Positions 6,744 through 49,041 of a DNA stretch of 64,000 nucleotides are shown here, one piece after another. Origin of the DNA: Candidatus Gastranaerophilales bacterium (lineage in GTDB: Bacteria; Cyanobacteriota; Vampirovibrionia; Gastranaerophilales; Gastranaerophilaceae); assembly GCA_944325875.1 (NCBI GenBank), contig CALVBU010000001.1, positions 310,001 through 374,000 on the forward strand, written 5' to 3'. The notes beneath the pieces were generated by a model. It ran no database searches. It was given only the letters and a program-made list of their open reading frames with translations, and had not been told where the DNA came from. Both the position numbers and the translations under genes were made by a program. Position 1 is the stretch's first letter. Each line of letters opens with the position of its first letter.

Positions 6744-7373
6744 ATGACAAATTACAAAGAATTAATCAAAAGCTTTAATAAAGAAGATTTCACTGAGCAC
6801 AGAGTAAACCTTCATATTCATTCGACTTACTCAGATGGGAAAGGAAACTTTTCTGATTTGATAAAACAGGCAAAAGAGAAGGGTTACAAAAATATAGCCA
6901 TAAGCGATCACAATACAGTTAACGGTTATATTGAAAATGAAATTCCTGAATACGTAATCCCTGCAGTCGAATTTGATGTATGGTGCGGATATGTTTTTTT
7001 GCACCTGTTGGGCTACGGAATTGACGTTAATAACAAGGAATTGCAGTCATTTTGCGCTAAAAACAAACGTGAAACAGAGTGGGATATAATAAGAATTTTT
7101 GCAAAAAGGGATATAAAAAAACTAATCAAAGCAATCCATAATGCTGGAGGAATTGCAGTTCTTGCTCACCCCGCTTGCTGTTGGGCACTAAATCATGAAA
7201 GATTTGTAAAAAAACTCATATCATACGGTCTTGATGGGATTGAAGTTTATTACCCATATAAAAGACACCGTGGAATTATAAAATTTGCAACAGCTCATCA
7301 TATAGAAAAGATTGCAGATAAATTTAACCTCATAAAAACAGGCGGAACCGACTTACACGATTATATCTTATAA
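6744..7373 (+). CDS. PHP-domain metal-dependent phosphoesterase
   Basis: A 209-residue PHP protein. Metal-ligand motifs are HIHSTYSDG (H24, H26, D31), SDHNT at 55-59, E76 in AVEFDV, LAHPACC, and GGTDLHD near the C-terminus. Family members hydrolyse phosphodiesters, for example 3',5'-nucleoside bisphosphates in the RNase AM/TrpH group. I start it at ATG 6744: the open frame extends further upstream but reads back through the start of the divergent membrane-protein gene. A TATAAT-like -10 lies about 35 bases before the ATG and the ribosome site is poor. Its 3' end overlaps the convergent pilin gene by 13 bases, and the C-terminal DLHDYIL is short for the family. Confidence 0.8.
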   Translation: MTNYKELIKSFNKEDFTEHRVNLHIHSTYSDGKGNFSDLIKQAKEKGYKNIAISDHNTVNGYIENEIPEYVIPAVEFDVWCGYVFLHLLGYGIDVNNKELQSFCAKNKRETEWDIIRIFAKRDIKKLIKAIHNAGGIAVLAHPACCWALNHERFVKKLISYGLDGIEVYYPYKRHRGIIKFATAHHIEKIADKFNLIKTGGTDLHDYIL

Positions 7374-8053
7374 GGGTAATCCTTTTTAAACTCCCAGTTA
7401 TCATGCTGTAATAATGCACTGCAATATTTTGGTTCTTTTTTACACGCTTCAAGTGCTTTCACCCTTGTATTATATACAGGCATATATACAGGACCGAAGG
7501 ATTTATTCTTATATAATTCGTGTTCAAAATCCCTACTATGAGATTTATTAGTTGCTATAAAAAAGTAAAACAAATCTTTTCCAAGTTCATTAGGTAATCT
7601 ATCGCCATTTACATCAAAAATTAAATCCATACAAAAACCAAAATGCATTGCAACAGTAGAGCCATCAGCAAAATATACTTTTGTTCTTTTCGTATTATCT
7701 TTCTCACCATCTGCAGTTTCTACATATACACCTTTTTCAACTCTCAAAGATTTTATATATGGTGCAAAATACTGATTCCAATAAGCATAGGTCAAATCAT
7801 GCTCTAACTGAGGATTTTCCGCTATCTGCTCAGAATAATTATCAATATCAGTCCAAGAGTATGCCTTAGTACCGTTATCATTTTCTGCAAATAAAATAGC
7901 TTGTTCCATTGAACTGACAAATTTTTTTAGTCGGGCTGTAGCTTCAACTCGTTTATTATTTTGAATAATTATTGGCAATGTCATTGCTGCAACTATTCCT
8001 ATAACACCCAATGTTATCAAGACCTCTGCTAACGTAAACCCTTTATTTTTCAT
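7361..8053 (-). CDS. Prepilin-like protein, cassette 1
   Basis: A 230-residue type IV pilin/pseudopilin-like protein. The class III leader MKNKG is followed by FTLAEVLITLG, with glycine at -1 and glutamate at +5, then the long hydrophobic alpha-1 helix. The variable domain contains DVNGDRLPNELGKDLFYF, a motif shared with the other pilins here, and ends with CSALLQHDNWEFKKDYPYKI. GGAGGA lies before the ATG. It would be cleaved by a prepilin peptidase and assembled in the membrane as a (minor) pilin; the partner machinery is not in the window. The divergent neighbour is a 70-residue XRE regulator, with operator-like repeats between them. Confidence 0.88.
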   Translation of the reverse strand: MKNKGFTLAEVLITLGVIGIVAAMTLPIIIQNNKRVEATARLKKFVSSMEQAILFAENDNGTKAYSWTDIDNYSEQIAENPQLEHDLTYAYWNQYFAPYIKSLRVEKGVYVETADGEKDNTKRTKVYFADGSTVAMHFGFCMDLIFDVNGDRLPNELGKDLFYFFIATNKSHSRDFEHELYKNKSFGPVYMPVYNTRVKALEACKKEPKYCSALLQHDNWEFKKDYPYKI

Positions 8054-8070
8054 AAATTCCTCCTATTTTG

Positions 8071-8111
8071 CTAGTGGTACTAGTTGTATTATTTGCTAGT
8101 ATAGCTAACAA
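8071..8111. promoter_or_regulatory. Cassette 1 operator pair and pilin promoter
   Basis: Two perfect inverted repeats lie between the divergent genes: CTAGT-GGT-ACTAG (8071-8083) and GCTA-GTA-TAGC (8095-8105). The octamer TTGCTAGT is repeated directly at 8068 and 8093. On the minus strand a candidate pilin promoter, TTGTTA (8111-8106), 17 bases, TACAAC (8088-8083), has the second repeat directly after its -35 and the first over the likely start site. Binding by the neighbouring XRE protein would block it. Confidence 0.55.
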
Positions 8112-8118
8112 TTTAAAA

Positions 8119-8331
8119 ATGGACAAGGGATATTTACAAAAATTTGCAAAAAACCTAAAAAAATTACGCAAAGCCAAAGGACTTACTCAAGACGATTTGG
8201 CTTCTGAAAAAATCTCGCGTTCGATGATAAGTTTAATTGAAATTGCAAAAACAGACCTTACAGTATCAAAAGTAAAAATTATTGCTGACACACTAAAAGT
8301 ACACCCAAAAGATTTATTTGATTTTGATTAG
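8119..8331 (+). CDS. Single-domain XRE/Cro-C1 regulator, cassette 1
   Basis: A 70-residue helix-turn-helix protein: [51 protein letters not shown] spans the five-helix XRE domain and almost nothing else. I start it at ATG 8119; the open frame extends 17 codons further into the intergenic operator repeats, which I regard as non-coding. It is divergent from the cassette 1 prepilin gene with about 65 bases between them, so it most likely represses that gene and itself. The stop overlaps the convergent prfB end by 4 bases. No toxin-like partner is present. Confidence 0.82.
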
Positions 8332-17626: not shown

Positions 17627-18605
17627 AGAAATCCTTATCTTTGCAGAAGTAACAAGAGAGAATTATATTCATACAGTATTTTTTGAACTTGCAAACAAAG
17701 CTCAAGAACTTGCAAACAAGCTTGAAAATGCAGAAGTAAATGCCCTTTTAATTTCTAAACCCGGACTGGCTGAAGAATACAAAGAAGCATTTGAAAACAG
17801 TGGAATTAACAAAATTTATGCAATAGAGGATTCAAGATTTGAATCATATTGCACAGACTATTTTGCAAAAGCTGCAATTGACGTAATCAAAGAAGTAAAA
17901 CCTGAAATATTGCTAATAGGAGCAACACATCAGGGGCGAGATCTTGCACCGAGAATATCAACAGCATTGCACACAGGACTTACTGCTGATTGTACAGAAT
18001 TAGATATTAACGAAAAAGGACAGCTTGCTGCTACACGTCCGACATTTGGCGGACAACTTATGGCAACTATTCTTTGTAAAAACATGCCTCAAATGGCAAC
18101 TGTACGACCAAAAGTCTTTAAACCAGCTGAAAAAGATAATAGAAAACCCACTGAAATTATTTATAAAAATGTAGACCTTGAAAACATTCCAAGATGCGTA
18201 GAATTAATAGAATTTCAAAAGAAATTAACAAACAGCATAAATGAACTTGATAGCGCAGAAATTATTGTAGCTGGAGGCCGAGGTCTTAAAAATGCCGAAG
18301 GTTTTAAGCTTCTAAAAGAATTTGCAAATAAACTAGGTGCTGCTGTTGGAGCAAGTAGAGTTGCAGTAGAAATGGGGCTAGCTTCTCATGAAATGCAAAT
18401 AGGACAAACTGGAAAAACGGTTACTCCAAAACTATATATCGCCTGCGGAATATCAGGAGCTATTCAACACACAATTGGAATGAATAAATCTGATAGAATT
18501 ATTGCAATCAACACAGATGAAAAAGCTCCAATATTTGAAATAGCTGACTATGGAATAGTTGGAGATGCGTTTGAAATTTTACCTGAACTAATTAACAAGT
18601 TCTAA
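17619..18605 (+). CDS. etfA: Electron transfer flavoprotein alpha subunit
   Basis: A 328-residue EtfA. The C-terminal FAD domain shows AEIIVAGGRGLKNAEGF, VGASRVAVEMGLASHEMQIGQTGKTVTPKLYIACGISGAIQHTIGM and the terminal FEIADYGIVGDAFEILPELINKF. The N-terminal domain is normal, without an added ferredoxin domain. It forms a heterodimer with EtfB and passes electrons between an acyl-CoA or similar dehydrogenase and an acceptor. No dehydrogenase gene is adjacent, but an NfnA-like reductase is in the same operon. The stop overlaps the convergent XRE gene by 4 bases. Confidence 0.95.
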   Translation: MSKEILIFAEVTRENYIHTVFFELANKAQELANKLENAEVNALLISKPGLAEEYKEAFENSGINKIYAIEDSRFESYCTDYFAKAAIDVIKEVKPEILLIGATHQGRDLAPRISTALHTGLTADCTELDINEKGQLAATRPTFGGQLMATILCKNMPQMATVRPKVFKPAEKDNRKPTEIIYKNVDLENIPRCVELIEFQKKLTNSINELDSAEIIVAGGRGLKNAEGFKLLKEFANKLGAAVGASRVAVEMGLASHEMQIGQTGKTVTPKLYIACGISGAIQHTIGMNKSDRIIAINTDEKAPIFEIADYGIVGDAFEILPELINKF

Positions 18606-18847
18606 TCAGTATTATCAATATCTTTGACTAAAACTTCTAATTTAACATTCAAAGCCTGAGCTATTCGAAACAAGGTATATATTGTTGCGGACTTTTCTGC
18701 TCGCTCAATACAGCCTATAAAATTCCTTGCAGAATCTATTTTAAAAGCAAGCTCTTCTTGAGATAAACCTTGTTGCTGACGGAGTTTTTTTATATTTTTT
18801 CCTAAATTTTTAAGAATTATTTTTTTTGAAGCATCAGATTGACTCAT
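18602..18847 (-). CDS. Single-domain XRE/Cro-C1 regulator, cassette 2
   Basis: An 81-residue HTH_3 protein: LGKNIKKLRQQQGLSQEELAFKIDSARNFIGCIERAEKSATIYTLFRIAQALNVKLEVLV is a full XRE domain, with short tails only. The start codon touches the left operator repeat, and AGGTGG just upstream on the minus strand can act as ribosome site while also being part of that repeat, so bound regulator would sit on its own translation start region. It is divergent from the cassette 2 prepilin with 68 bases between the start codons. Confidence 0.85.
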   Translation of the reverse strand: MSQSDASKKIILKNLGKNIKKLRQQQGLSQEELAFKIDSARNFIGCIERAEKSATIYTLFRIAQALNVKLEVLVKDIDNTD

Positions 18848-18896
18848 ACCACCTATTGTGGTACATTATTTTACGAGTTACTACCACCTATAGGTG
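18847..18896. promoter_or_regulatory. Cassette 2 operator pair and pilin promoter
   Basis: Two inverted repeats: TACCAC-CTATT-GTGGTA (18847-18863) and the palindrome CACCTATAGGTG (18885-18896). The decamer TACCACCTAT is directly repeated at 18847 and 18882. A candidate pilin promoter is TTGTGG (18856-18861), 17 bases, TACTAC (18879-18884): operator 1 covers the -35 and operator 2 begins at the end of the -10. Confidence 0.6.
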
Positions 18897-18915
18897 TCAT
18901 AGAGGTTGAAAGAAT

Positions 18916-19557
18916 ATGAATAAAGGTTTCACTTTAGCAGAAGTATTGATTACTTTAGGTATAATAGGCATTGTAGCAGCAATGACTCTTCCTAATATTC
19001 TAGGAAACTATAGAAAAAAAACTGTAGAGACAAGATTGCAAAGATTTTATTCTGTTGCAAATAATGCACTAAAAGCATCCGAAGCTGAAAATGAAAGTTG
19101 GGATTTTTGGTATTTTGAGACAAACGCAAATGTTATTAACACTAAAAAATGGTATGATACATACCTAGCAAAATATTGGAAAACTGTAAAAGTTGAAGTT
19201 CTAAATGAAGGTTTTGTTGTAGCCTACTTTCCTGATGGAAGCTTATGTGTTATAAAATCCGGCTTCGACTACTTTTATTATCCTGAAGGGAAAAACTTTT
19301 CAGAATTAAAATTCAGACAAAGAACAAAATATATGGGGAAAACATTATTTGTATTCAGTTTTCACCCTGATCAAAAAACAGATGATATGCATTATAAAAA
19401 AGGAATTGAACCATATGGTTCTTCAAAATCAGATTTATACGCAGATCCTTTATACGGTTGTAATAACAATAATCCTACAGGAGGAGCTGCTTTTTGTACA
19501 CAAATAATAGCAAAAAACGGCTGGAAAATTCCGGAGAATTACCCATTTAAATTTTAG
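18916..19557 (+). CDS. Prepilin-like protein, cassette 2
   Basis: A 213-residue prepilin: MNKG leader, FTLAEVLITLG with Glu +5, hydrophobic helix, then KTVETRLQRFYSVANNALKASEAENESWDFW. The DVNG-PN-G-D-F motif of its paralogs is reduced to a short YYPEGKNFSELKF region. The C-terminus CTQIIAKNGWKIPENYPFKF matches the W-K-x-YP-x-K end of cassettes 1 and 4. GAGG lies upstream of ATG. The alternation with unrelated genes (etfA before, purA after) marks it as an inserted module with its XRE partner. Confidence 0.88.
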   Translation: MNKGFTLAEVLITLGIIGIVAAMTLPNILGNYRKKTVETRLQRFYSVANNALKASEAENESWDFWYFETNANVINTKKWYDTYLAKYWKTVKVEVLNEGFVVAYFPDGSLCVIKSGFDYFYYPEGKNFSELKFRQRTKYMGKTLFVFSFHPDQKTDDMHYKKGIEPYGSSKSDLYADPLYGCNNNNPTGGAAFCTQIIAKNGWKIPENYPFKF

Positions 19558-24107: not shown

Positions 24108-24413
24108 TTAAAATAGCATTTTATATATTAATCTAACCAAATCATCATCTTTTTCTAATTTTTTAAAGATTTTTTTACGTAAAAGTGAAATATCTTGTAA
24201 ATGTTCATAAAGAAAGAGTTCTGATATACTTATTTGAAATACTTCTAATAGTTTTTCCAAAGTTTTTAGTCTTGGGAAAGTCTCCCCGTTTTCAAGTTTT
24301 ATTATATTTCTAGTATCAATATCAATAAGCTCAGCCAATTTTTCCTGCGTAAGATTTTTTTCTTTACGAAGCTCTTTAATTCTTTTACCTAGTAAATCTT
24401 TTATATCCTGCAT
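24108..24413 (-). CDS. XRE/Cro-C1 regulator with short C-terminal extension, cassette 3
   Basis: A 101-residue protein. LGKRIKELRKEKNLTQEKLAELIDIDTRNIIKLENGETFPRLKTLEKLLEVFQISISELF is the XRE domain (about residues 8-67). About 34 further residues, basic and hydrophobic, follow and may mediate dimerisation. AGGAG lies before the ATG. It is divergent from the cassette 3 prepilin with about 130 bases between them, containing two matched 17-bp operators. Confidence 0.87.
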   Translation of the reverse strand: MQDIKDLLGKRIKELRKEKNLTQEKLAELIDIDTRNIIKLENGETFPRLKTLEKLLEVFQISISELFLYEHLQDISLLRKKIFKKLEKDDDLVRLIYKMLF

Positions 24414-24460
24414 TAAAACTCCTTTAAATAAAATTATATTATTTTTTTTCGTAAGTTATT

Positions 24461-24530
24461 ATGATTTTAAAAATCATTTAGAATTGACAAAAGTGACAAT
24501 ATAAGCCATAATAATGATGTAAAATATCAT
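24461..24530. promoter_or_regulatory. Cassette 3 pilin promoter bracketed by two 17-bp operators
   Basis: Two sites with the same frame ATGAT-N7-ATCAT: 24461-24477 (centre TTTAAAA, giving a 7-bp-arm inverted repeat) and 24514-24530 (centre GTAAAAT). Between them is a good sigma-70 promoter, TTGACA (24484-24489), 17 bases, CATAAT (24507-24512), reading toward the pilin. The start site would fall near 24519 inside the second operator. Matching size and half-sites make this the clearest operator pair besides cassette 5. Confidence 0.75.
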
Positions 24531-24545
24531 TTTTTGGAGGAAGAT

Positions 24546-25277
24546 ATGAAAAATAAAAAGGCATTTACATTGGCTGAAGTATTAATTACTTTAGGGATAA
24601 TAGGAGTAATTGCAGCAATGACACTGCCAACCTTAGTTCAAAAGCAGCAAGAAAAAGCTACTGTAACAGCATTAAAAAAATTCTACTCCACAATATCCCA
24701 AGCCTACCTTTTTGCAATAAATGAAAAAGGAACCGTTGATAATTGGGGTTTTACAACAGGAAAAGCAAAAGAACTTCTTACAACAATAAAACCATACCTA
24801 AATTTTATAAAATACTGTGAAGTAGGTGAAAAATGCCATCCAGCAGAAAATGTAGTTTTTCGTAATGGCACAACTTATATAAATGAAATCTTTAATCCTA
24901 TAAACGAAGCTCGAGTATCGGCAATTCTCTCGGATGGTAGTATTATTGGAGCATATTTACAAAGCCCTGACTGTAGTATAGTATATGGAAATAATAAAGC
25001 CCTTTCAAATGTATGTGGTGAATACATGATTGATATAAATGGAGGGAAAAAACCTAATCAATATGGGAAAGACATATTTATATTCAATATAACAAAATAT
25101 GGTATTATACCAAATGGTACAGAAAATTATACGTTTAATAAATATAACTTTAATGACGGATGTCTAAATAAAACTTCAGAAGGTTTTGGATGTACAGCTT
25201 GGGTTATTTACAATGAAAACACTGATTATTTAAAATGCGATTATTTAGCTTGGAATGGAATGAAAAAATGTAAATAA
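24546..25277 (+). CDS. Prepilin-like protein, cassette 3
   Basis: A 243-residue prepilin. The leader MKNKKA has alanine, not glycine, at -1, a change prepilin peptidases can tolerate, followed by FTLAEVLITLG. The globular part has DINGGKKPNQYGKDIFIF and four or more cysteines in spaced pairs (CEVGEKC, CSIV, CGEY, CLN, CTAW, CDY, CK), suggesting disulfides after export. I use ATG 24546, four codons after an in-frame TTG, because GGAGGA (24537-24542) is ideally placed. A bidirectional terminator separates it from gap. Confidence 0.88.
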   Translation: MKNKKAFTLAEVLITLGIIGVIAAMTLPTLVQKQQEKATVTALKKFYSTISQAYLFAINEKGTVDNWGFTTGKAKELLTTIKPYLNFIKYCEVGEKCHPAENVVFRNGTTYINEIFNPINEARVSAILSDGSIIGAYLQSPDCSIVYGNNKALSNVCGEYMIDINGGKKPNQYGKDIFIFNITKYGIIPNGTENYTFNKYNFNDGCLNKTSEGFGCTAWVIYNENTDYLKCDYLAWNGMKKCK

Positions 25278-26458: not shown

Positions 26459-27118
26459 TTATTTTAGTTTATAAGGATAATCCTCTAAAATTTTCCAACC
26501 ATCATACATAATTAATGCTGAACAATTCATCGGTGTTGACTTACAAGAATTTAACAACTGCGTTCTTGTACAACCTGTCTTTGCACATGAAACAGGAAAA
26601 TATGCATCAAAAGGATTTTGACGATTTCTACTTAATCCAGCATTATAACCTTCTTCGGTACAAAGTAAAAAATCAAACATATCAACCCCTAAAATATTAG
26701 GGGCTTTTTCCCCATTATAGTCAAAGTTTATATCCAGACAATACCCACTACCAAAACGTATTGTTGACCCGTCTGCAAACATTACAGAAATACCTTTTCC
26801 TCCTGTATCTAATTCTGTAACTTTTTTCAAATATTTTGCCAAATATTTATTATAAAAAGCAATAGTTCCTTCTCTATTACCAGCATTTCCTCCCTCTCCA
26901 TCATCGATTCTTGGTGATTTGTCCCAGTAAAAAGCCGGTCCATTATCAATTTCAGAAAGTTTTACTGCTTGAGCCATGTTAGTATAAAATCTTTTAATTT
27001 TTGACTCAATCTCCTGTTTTTTATAATTATGAACAATTACAGGCAATGTCATTGCAGCTACAACCCCAATAATACCTAGCGTTATCAATACTTCTGCAAG
27101 AGTAAATCCTTTCTTCAT
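26459..27118 (-). CDS. Prepilin-like protein, cassette 4
   Basis: A 219-residue prepilin: MKKG, FTLAEVLITLG, hydrophobic helix, then YKKQEIESKIKRFYTNMAQAVKLSE. The globular domain has FDYNGEKAPNILGVDMFDFLL, and the C-terminus CSALIMYDGWKILEDYPYKLK is near-identical in pattern to cassette 1. GGAGG is 8 bases before the ATG. About 110 bases without obvious features lie between its stop and the gap start. The divergent partner encodes a HTH_26-type regulator. Confidence 0.88.
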   Translation of the reverse strand: MKKGFTLAEVLITLGIIGVVAAMTLPVIVHNYKKQEIESKIKRFYTNMAQAVKLSEIDNGPAFYWDKSPRIDDGEGGNAGNREGTIAFYNKYLAKYLKKVTELDTGGKGISVMFADGSTIRFGSGYCLDINFDYNGEKAPNILGVDMFDFLLCTEEGYNAGLSRNRQNPFDAYFPVSCAKTGCTRTQLLNSCKSTPMNCSALIMYDGWKILEDYPYKLK

Positions 27119-27147
27119 AAAACCTCCATTTTATTAAACGTTATTAC

Positions 27148-27183
27148 AATATTATTAAATACATGAATAATATTATTAGTCAA
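27148..27183. promoter_or_regulatory. Cassette 4 candidate promoter and operator repeats
   Basis: The palindrome AATAATATTATT (27166-27177) and an upstream half-matching AATATTATT (27148-27156) together form a 9-9-9 inverted repeat. On the minus strand TTGACT (27183-27178), 16 bases, TATTTA (27161-27156) could drive the pilin, with the palindrome directly after the -35 as in cassette 1. AT-rich sequence makes chance repeats more likely here. Confidence 0.4.
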
Positions 27184-27435
27184 TCATTTAATCTAATCAC
27201 TAAGATTATAAATAATGATAAACTTGCAAATATGATTAAAAACAAATTATCAGAAATGATGGGTATAAGAAGAATGAACATGGCAGAAACGGCAAGAATA
27301 GCCGGATTGAGCCATGTTGCAGTATTTAAAATTTATCATAATAAAACTAAAACAATTGAACTTGAAACTATAAACAAACTGTGTTATGCTCTGGATTGTA
27401 GAATTCAGGATATCTTTGAATATATACCTGACTAG
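27163..27435 (+). CDS. HTH_26-type Cro/C1 regulator, cassette 4
   Basis: A 90-residue protein (67 if started at the in-frame ATG 27232). The domain IKNKLSEMMGIRRMNMAETARIAGLSHVAVFKIYHNKTKTIELETINKLCYALDCRIQDIFEYIP has the HTH_26 signature (KIYHNKTK and ALDCRIQDIFEYIP), a different XRE branch from the other cassettes. Neither start has a Shine-Dalgarno sequence. The downstream start is favoured by domain length and would free the pilin promoter region from coding. Divergent from the cassette 4 prepilin. Confidence 0.8.
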   Translation: MNNIISQSFNLITKIINNDKLANMIKNKLSEMMGIRRMNMAETARIAGLSHVAVFKIYHNKTKTIELETINKLCYALDCRIQDIFEYIPD

Positions 27436-47910: not shown

Positions 47911-48594
47911 CTATTTGCCTGCACCATATAGAACAGCTTCAGCAGCAACAGTAGCTGGAAGAACTGTTTGGTCATACATAATTACAGGATAGATATCTGT
48001 AGGGTTAGAAACCTTGCAGTCTCCAGTTGTAGGACCTTTGAATGGATCAGTTTGCCCATCACAATTAACAACTCTGTTAGGATTCTTTTCACCATTAACA
48101 TCTATTGCACCAAAACAGTAACCAGTTTTTGTATCTGTACCTTTATTATTTATTTTATTATTTGCATCAATTTTATCAGTTGCGTTACCTTCTGTACATT
48201 GAGATGAAGTAGTTGCAAATGTAAAAGTAATACCATCATTAAAATACAATGTATAATTATTTGCATCCCCAAACTTTACATTAGCTGAATTACTTGCAGT
48301 ATACGCTTTGCCACCAGTCTTAACAACATTCATACGATTATTAAACAAATTGTATAAAGATGCATTATCATTAGTAGTTGTAGAAGTTGTTTGAGACAAG
48401 TCATAATCATCAAGAGCAACGTTCAAAACTACAGCTTGAGACAATACTGATAGTGCTTTTTTGTAAGCAGTTTTGTATTGAGCTCCGTTAGTTGAATTCA
48501 TCAATGTAGGCATTGTCATAGCGGCAACTACCCCGATAATACCTAGCGTAATCAAGACTTCCGCTAAGGTAAAAGCGTTTTTAAAACTTTTCAT
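47911..48594 (-). CDS. Prepilin-like protein, cassette 5
   Basis: A 227-residue prepilin: the leader MKSFKNA has alanine at -1, then FTLAEVLITLG with Glu +5. The globular domain differs from its paralogs: rich in Asn, Thr and Ala (TTSTTTNDNASLYNLFNNR), with CFGAIDVNGEKNPNRVVNCDG as the conserved motif and no W-K-x-YP end. It may be a small major-pilin-like subunit. GGAGG lies before the ATG, and the gene has its own terminator. Divergent XRE regulator at 48724. Confidence 0.88.
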   Translation of the reverse strand: MKSFKNAFTLAEVLITLGIIGVVAAMTMPTLMNSTNGAQYKTAYKKALSVLSQAVVLNVALDDYDLSQTTSTTTNDNASLYNLFNNRMNVVKTGGKAYTASNSANVKFGDANNYTLYFNDGITFTFATTSSQCTEGNATDKIDANNKINNKGTDTKTGYCFGAIDVNGEKNPNRVVNCDGQTDPFKGPTTGDCKVSNPTDIYPVIMYDQTVLPATVAAEAVLYGAGK

Positions 48595-48626
48595 TTATGT
48601 ACCTCCATTATAATAGTTCCAATTAT

Positions 48627-48676
48627 ATAATACCATATACATATCATTTTGTCAATATAAATGATATGTATATCAT
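48627..48676. promoter_or_regulatory. Cassette 5 pilin promoter with two copies of a 16-bp operator
   Basis: Operator A is ATGATATGTATATCAT (48661-48676), a near-perfect palindrome. Operator B on the other strand (48647-48632) reads ATGATATGTATATGGT. Together they form an inverted repeat with 15-bp perfect arms (48635-48649 and 48659-48673). The minus-strand pilin promoter is TTGACA (48655-48650), exactly 17 bases, TATTAT (48632-48627). Operator B fills the spacer and A lies just upstream of the -35. This is the strongest repression geometry in the window. Confidence 0.8.
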
Positions 48677-48723
48677 AAATAAGACTAATTATCAACTATA
48701 TACTGTACAAGTGAGGAAACATT

Positions 48724-49041
48724 GTGGATAAGGTACTCTTAGGCAAAAAACTAAAACAAATAAGGATTTCCAGAGGGATTTCGCAAGAACAGCTCTCAGA
48801 GATGATTTATCTATCTCCAAGACAAATGAGTATCATTGAAACCGGAAACTCTTACCCCTCTTTAGATACATTTATCAGAATAGCCGAAAAATTAGAATTT
48901 GATATTAACGACTTTTTCAACGTAAACATAAAAAACCAAGATGAAACAAGACAAAAAGTTATAGAACAGATCAAGACACTTGATAAAAAACACCTAAACC
49001 TTGTAAGCGATATTATTAGCGCTATAGAAAAAAATCAATAG
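48724..49041 (+). CDS. XRE/Cro-C1 regulator with C-terminal helix, cassette 5
   Basis: A 105-residue protein starting at GTG 48724, with GAGG upstream. The XRE domain is LGKKLKQIRISRGISQEQLSEMIYLSPRQMSIIETGNSYPSLDTFIRIAEKLEFDINDFF, followed by an amphipathic helix (QDETRQKVIEQIKTLDKKHLNLVSDIISAIEK) likely used for dimerisation. It is probably a repressor of the adjacent pilin and possibly of itself (TATACT at 48699-48704 reads toward it). Confidence 0.88.
   Translation: MDKVLLGKKLKQIRISRGISQEQLSEMIYLSPRQMSIIETGNSYPSLDTFIRIAEKLEFDINDFFNVNIKNQDETRQKVIEQIKTLDKKHLNLVSDIISAIEKNQ

Follow-up and report, generated by a model that had tools for sequence, protein, structure and literature searches.

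The locus analyzed here raises the question of how a pilin-like gene is controlled when a gene for an XRE-type protein starts 129 bp away on the opposite strand and the interval between them contains a pair of related repeats. From sequence comparison, we propose that the divergently encoded XRE protein acts as a dimer that represses this one pilin by excluding RNA polymerase, so that the divergent gene pair would form a self-contained switch, and we place the probability of this reading at roughly 0.83. The cassette lies between rmuC and pyrF (OMPdecase) in a 2.2-Mb genome that shares its genus with Candidatus Scatousia excrementigallinarum and excrementipullorum (Gastranaerophilales). The pilin-like product has a prepilin cleavage/methylation motif, which was detected with PF07963 (N_methyl; 22.7 bits, cut-off 21.2) and TIGR02532 (21.8 bits, cut-off 16.3). 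Positions are those of the window, that is, the whole 64,000-nucleotide stretch of DNA that was analyzed.

Features of the pilin/XRE locus, in window coordinates
Feature	Position	Strand	Remarks
Pilin-like gene, 227 aa	47911-48594	minus	prepilin N-terminal motif FTLAEVLITLGIIGVVAAMTMPTLMNSTNGAQYK (Pfam, TIGR02532)
-10 hexamer TATTAT	48632-48627	minus	pilin promoter; preceded by TG (extended -10); mean 1.54 bits over six positions in 33 orthologues
Spacer AAATGATATGTATATGG, 17 bp	48649-48633	minus	pilin promoter
-35 hexamer TTGACA	48655-48650	minus	pilin promoter; invariant over 33 orthologous regions, in part by selection, because the search that gathered them required TTGACA
Operator O1 ATGATATGTATATGGT	48632-48647	minus	within the spacer, touching the first -10 base; centre near -19.5
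Operator O2, ATGATAT-GT-ATATCAT	48661-48676	both	7-2-7 palindrome; ATGATATGTATATCAT on plus, ATGATATACATATCAT on minus
Inverted repeat AAATGATATGTATAT, 15 bp	48635-48649 / 48659-48673		perfect; shared by both operators
Probable -10 TATACT of the XRE promoter	48699-48704	plus	no recognizable -35
XRE / Cro-CI type HTH gene, 105 aa	48724-49041	plus	proposed repressor; GTG start, GAGG at 48713-48716

The sequence-only reading had described TTGACA, 17 bases, and TATTAT ahead of the pilin gene, and this arrangement was confirmed on the minus strand (48655-48627). With near-consensus hexamers and the optimal 17-bp spacing, it is predicted to be a strong sigma70-type promoter; a 26-bp pilin leader follows, with GGAGG ahead of the ATG. 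The same reading had one operator copy filling the spacer and a palindrome abutting the -35. The former description was nearly exact, in that 15 of the 17 spacer bases, together with the first -10 base, belong to O1; as for the latter, O2 is indeed a 7-2-7 palindrome, but it lies upstream of the -35 across a gap of 5 bp (TTATA), for which “abuts” is slightly loose. The perfect 15-bp inverted repeat formed by the arms was recovered as claimed. Of 20,000 dinucleotide-shuffled versions of the intergenic region, 0.075% contained an exact repeat pair of 15 bp in direct or inverted orientation, whereas 6.3% contained one 7/7 palindrome, and a palindrome alone would therefore mean little here. When the window was searched loosely, allowing three mismatches, seven matches were found versus 4.1 expected, and this count was not significant.

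The support that we regard as decisive for the predicted operators is their conservation in other genomes. Orthologues of the XRE gene were present in 10 of the 13 genomes of the genus and in 60 of the 383 genomes of the family, belonging to 9 of its 41 genera. O1, O2, TTGACA, and a -10 were all retained in the nine intact regions of the genus, and loci of other genera had the same arrangement before a divergent pilin gene. With TTGACA as the anchor, we stacked 33 distinct regions orthologous to this one, which came from nine genera. The information content of the -35 (2.00 bits) and of the left arm of O1 (1.97 bits) is partly selected, because the pattern with which most of the regions were collected includes both. 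Outside this pattern, the arms of O2 had 1.79 and 1.83 bits and its centre 0.67 bits, and the centre and right arm of O1 had 0.30 and 1.49 bits. The -10 had 1.54 bits, and the stretch toward the XRE gene 0.54 bits. The spacing of 29 bp between O1 and O2 was unchanged in all 33 regions. A palindromic site that would fit a dimer, TGATAT-NN-ATATCA, was found in the 33 regions, and constrained TGATAT/ATATCA arms around free 2-bp centres are the trace expected of a dimeric HTH protein. Judged by these sequences, the operator pair and the promoter are real and conserved. One argument against the proposal is that 29 bp does not correspond to whole helical turns; therefore, a cooperative contact between two dimers is not obvious. 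The right arm of O1 varied by genus, being ATATG where the -10 resembled TATTAT and mostly ATATC where it was TATAAT, and in several genera this arm forms the TG of an extended -10. This pattern is suggestive only, as it is clumped by genus, of an extended -10 traded against operator symmetry.

The operators also accompany the XRE gene from genome to genome. The promoter-operator pattern TTGACAAAWTGATAYNNAT matched 55 sites in the 383 genomes, whereas the reversed control matched one, and 52 of the 55 sites were divergent from an XRE orthologue at a distance of 67–78 bp. In terms of genomes, the pattern was present in 52 of the 60 XRE-positive and 2 of the 323 XRE-negative ones (Fisher 5e-53, a value that ignores the kinship among these related genomes). 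Eight XRE-positive genomes had no exact match, including one without the region (G004) and one with a variant (G028). In its own genome, TGATATNNATATSR occurred at ten distinct places, of which only O1 and O2 were outside long open frames. A wider regulon was considered and rejected, the other eight places all being inside such frames; because there are no other intergenic copies, the predicted regulon is this locus. Furthermore, pilin, operators, and XRE gene were jointly absent at the locus in three members of the genus: in one, rmuC directly adjoins pyrF (G003; L176), and in two, another gene occupies the stretch beside rmuC (G006 and G010; L173 and L174); the pattern was absent from all three. 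Two sibling pilins in the window's own genome (L032 and L033, at C12:12433 and C1:220945) have a nearly identical N-terminus without the operators, although L033 carries a TTGACA-17-TATTAT promoter. That the XRE protein directly controls the pilin promoter, as the sequence-only reading had suggested, is thus supported by footprinting over nine genera, by co-occurrence over 383 genomes, by the lack of other intergenic copies in its own genome, and by the joint absence in three relatives.

The XRE protein contains an HTH_3-type DNA-binding domain according to Pfam (HTH_19, 50.8 bits, cut-off 30.2, 1.6e-13; HTH_3, 40.2 bits, cut-off 23, 3.5e-10) and to its fold, for which matches were 3ivp, C.BclI, PlcR, and SinR. 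In the predicted model, the five HTH helices had high confidence and the two C-terminal helices were less certain; no sensor domain was found in the 105-aa protein. The recognition helix, SPRQM, is invariant in the nine orthologues of the genus, where the operator is also invariant. The probable -10 of the XRE gene itself had 1.16 bits in the 33-region stack versus 0.54 bits in the neighboring stretch, and the distance from the start of O2 to its reverse complement, AGTATA, was 28 bp in eight of nine members of the genus and 27 bp in the ninth. Relative to this promoter, O2 spans -35 to -50 and is centred near -42.5; relative to the pilin promoter, it is centred near -48.5.

We infer binding by this XRE protein, repression, and autoregulation from these arrangements. 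As a dimer, the protein would bind the TGATAT-NN-ATATCA sites, and their occupation, chiefly that of O1 between the -35 and the -10, would exclude RNA polymerase and keep the pilin off. When active XRE protein drops, the near-consensus pilin promoter would fire at once. Repression is expected rather than activation because the promoter that encloses O1 is near consensus and its 17-bp spacing is optimal. Since O2 is common to the XRE promoter, with its weak -35, the XRE protein probably controls itself as well; such autoregulation through O2 is likely, and either repression or an activation like that by lambda CI at OR2 is possible.

An XRE protein that activates the pilin by recruiting RNA polymerase from O2, next to the -35 on its upstream side, appears unlikely. 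O2 is within an activator's reach at about -48.5, and PlcR and ComR, kin to the XRE protein by sequence or fold, are activators; however, a near-consensus promoter with an optimal spacer needs no activator, O1 within it would obstruct the polymerase, and O1 is conserved as well as O2. We attach equally little weight to the sites being bound mainly by some other regulator, such as one of the approximately 40 XRE paralogues or a global factor, with the adjacent XRE gene incidental. Although at least 40 XRE-like proteins are encoded in the genome, the operator tracks this particular orthologue at a nearly fixed distance (52/60 versus 2/323 genomes), and a multi-target factor should have further intergenic copies, none of which were found in the window's own genome.

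The repeats might also be chance AT-rich palindromes, or AT-rich sequence retained because it serves the polymerase as promoter or upstream element, in a region that is indeed AT-rich and of which 6.3% of shuffles contain a 7/7 palindrome. This would not explain why, in nine genera, two sites spaced 29 bp apart keep their palindromic arms with free centres, nor the rarity of the 15-bp pair (0.075% of shuffles) or the sibling pilins L032 and L033, which do without the operators even where TTGACA-17-TATTAT is present; we consider it very improbable. Least probable of all is a role as RNA, such as a leader hairpin or a terminator, which the intergenic location of the inverted repeat could suggest. 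On either strand, the predicted transcription start (about 48620 for the pilin, about 48711 for the XRE gene) is downstream of both copies, and hence neither transcript would contain them.

By analogy, the mechanism proposed for the XRE/pilin pair, exclusion of polymerase by the XRE dimer, is of an ordinary, known kind: a Cro/CI-type repressor at a divergent promoter. The right operator regions of lambda, 434, and P22 (CI/Cro) likewise combine a small HTH_3 protein with divergent promoters. As here, lambda has palindromic operators that overlie one promoter and, at the weak promoter of the regulator itself, lie near -42. The present locus differs in having two operators rather than three, with a centre spacing of 29 bp, in its target, which is a chromosomal pilin gene and not lytic genes, and in its 105-aa regulator, which has no cleavable C-terminal domain. 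A lambda-like third operator was considered and rejected: between O2 and the XRE start, the best match in the window was 6/12, and a TGATAT half-site in G001, G009, and G011 was not conserved. The C (controller) proteins of type II restriction-modification systems (C.BclI, C.AhdI, C.Esp1396I, and C.PvuII) are similar in fold, with 2b5a and 1y7y as close matches, and C-protein dimers bind two operators, one for activation and one for repression of their own promoter (PMC3695507). In contrast, the main target here would be a separate, divergent pilin promoter, and the flanking genes are pyrF and rmuC, with no restriction or methyltransferase gene. In NCBIfam, the XRE protein matched the RstR-type repressors of filamentous phages best (3.5e-12, along almost its entire length), but the score of 46.5 bits for NF041951 was well below the curated cut-off of 80 bits, and no phage genes are located beside the XRE gene. 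Chromosomal XRE regulators such as SinR and PlcR share the HTH (PlcR, 3.2e-10; SinR, a fold match); unlike them, the present system has no SinI partner and no peptide-binding TPR domain, and a single local target is predicted.

What is unusual is the setting, a genome with 115 pilin-like genes, at least 44 of them with a divergent XRE gene. This genome (G000) gave 115 pilin-like matches; 44 of the 101 read in detail had a divergent XRE gene within 400 bp, and 29 of 40 XRE matches had a divergent pilin within 500 bp, versus approximately 0.013 expected per XRE. Five such pairs occur in the window (7361-8331, 18602-19557, 24108-25277, 26459-27435, and 47911-49041). Pilins with a divergent XRE gene had stronger promoters than the others, in favor of the proposed repression: 25 of the 44 with such a gene, versus 10 of the 57 without one, scored 10 or more out of 12. 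A 14/14 repeated pair was present in only four of the 44 intergenic regions; a shared operator for all cassettes was therefore rejected, because few have a strong repeat pair and the palindromes differ among cassettes. For example, the paralogous cassette 3 (window ~24414-24545) has another recognition helix and another palindrome, ATGATTTTAAAAATCAT, at an equivalent position (24461-24477), upstream of TTGACA-17-CATAAT; this palindrome is recognizable in orthologues from seven genomes of the genus, and its half-site differs from that of cassette 5, the locus described here. It is conceivable, though we hold it doubtful, that the genome contains dozens of insulated pilin switches, each with its own small, divergently encoded repressor and operator and possibly self-activating. 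If this is true, single pilins could be switched independently, giving surface variation without DNA rearrangement.

For Gastranaerophilales, a gut lineage that is mostly uncultured, the locus thus provides a well-supported predicted pilin promoter with its operator. Of the divergent XRE/pilin pairs in this genome, at least 44 in number, it is the best anchored. In the literature on Gastranaerophilales/Melainabacteria pilins, type IV pili and XRE, Scatousia, and XRE pilin repressors, we found nothing describing this system. Tests of the operator, in vitro and in E. coli, do not require the organism in culture, and a comparison of the recognition helices and operators of the paralogous pairs could reveal how the repressor set stays separate.

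Some orthologous loci of the genus differed in structure. G004 (L067/L175) lacks the promoter together with the N-terminal part of the pilin and the first codons of the XRE gene, and the middle of the pilin is joined to the XRE gene; this gap is either a real deletion or an assembly join or collapse. The pilin leader is approximately 90 bp longer in three genomes (G005, G008, and G012; L064, L065, and L066), with an insert containing AAAAACTGCYCTTA. In G007 (L062), the start of the orthologous pilin is seemingly duplicated, with a GFTLAE start and, in frame behind it, a second complete prepilin N-terminus.
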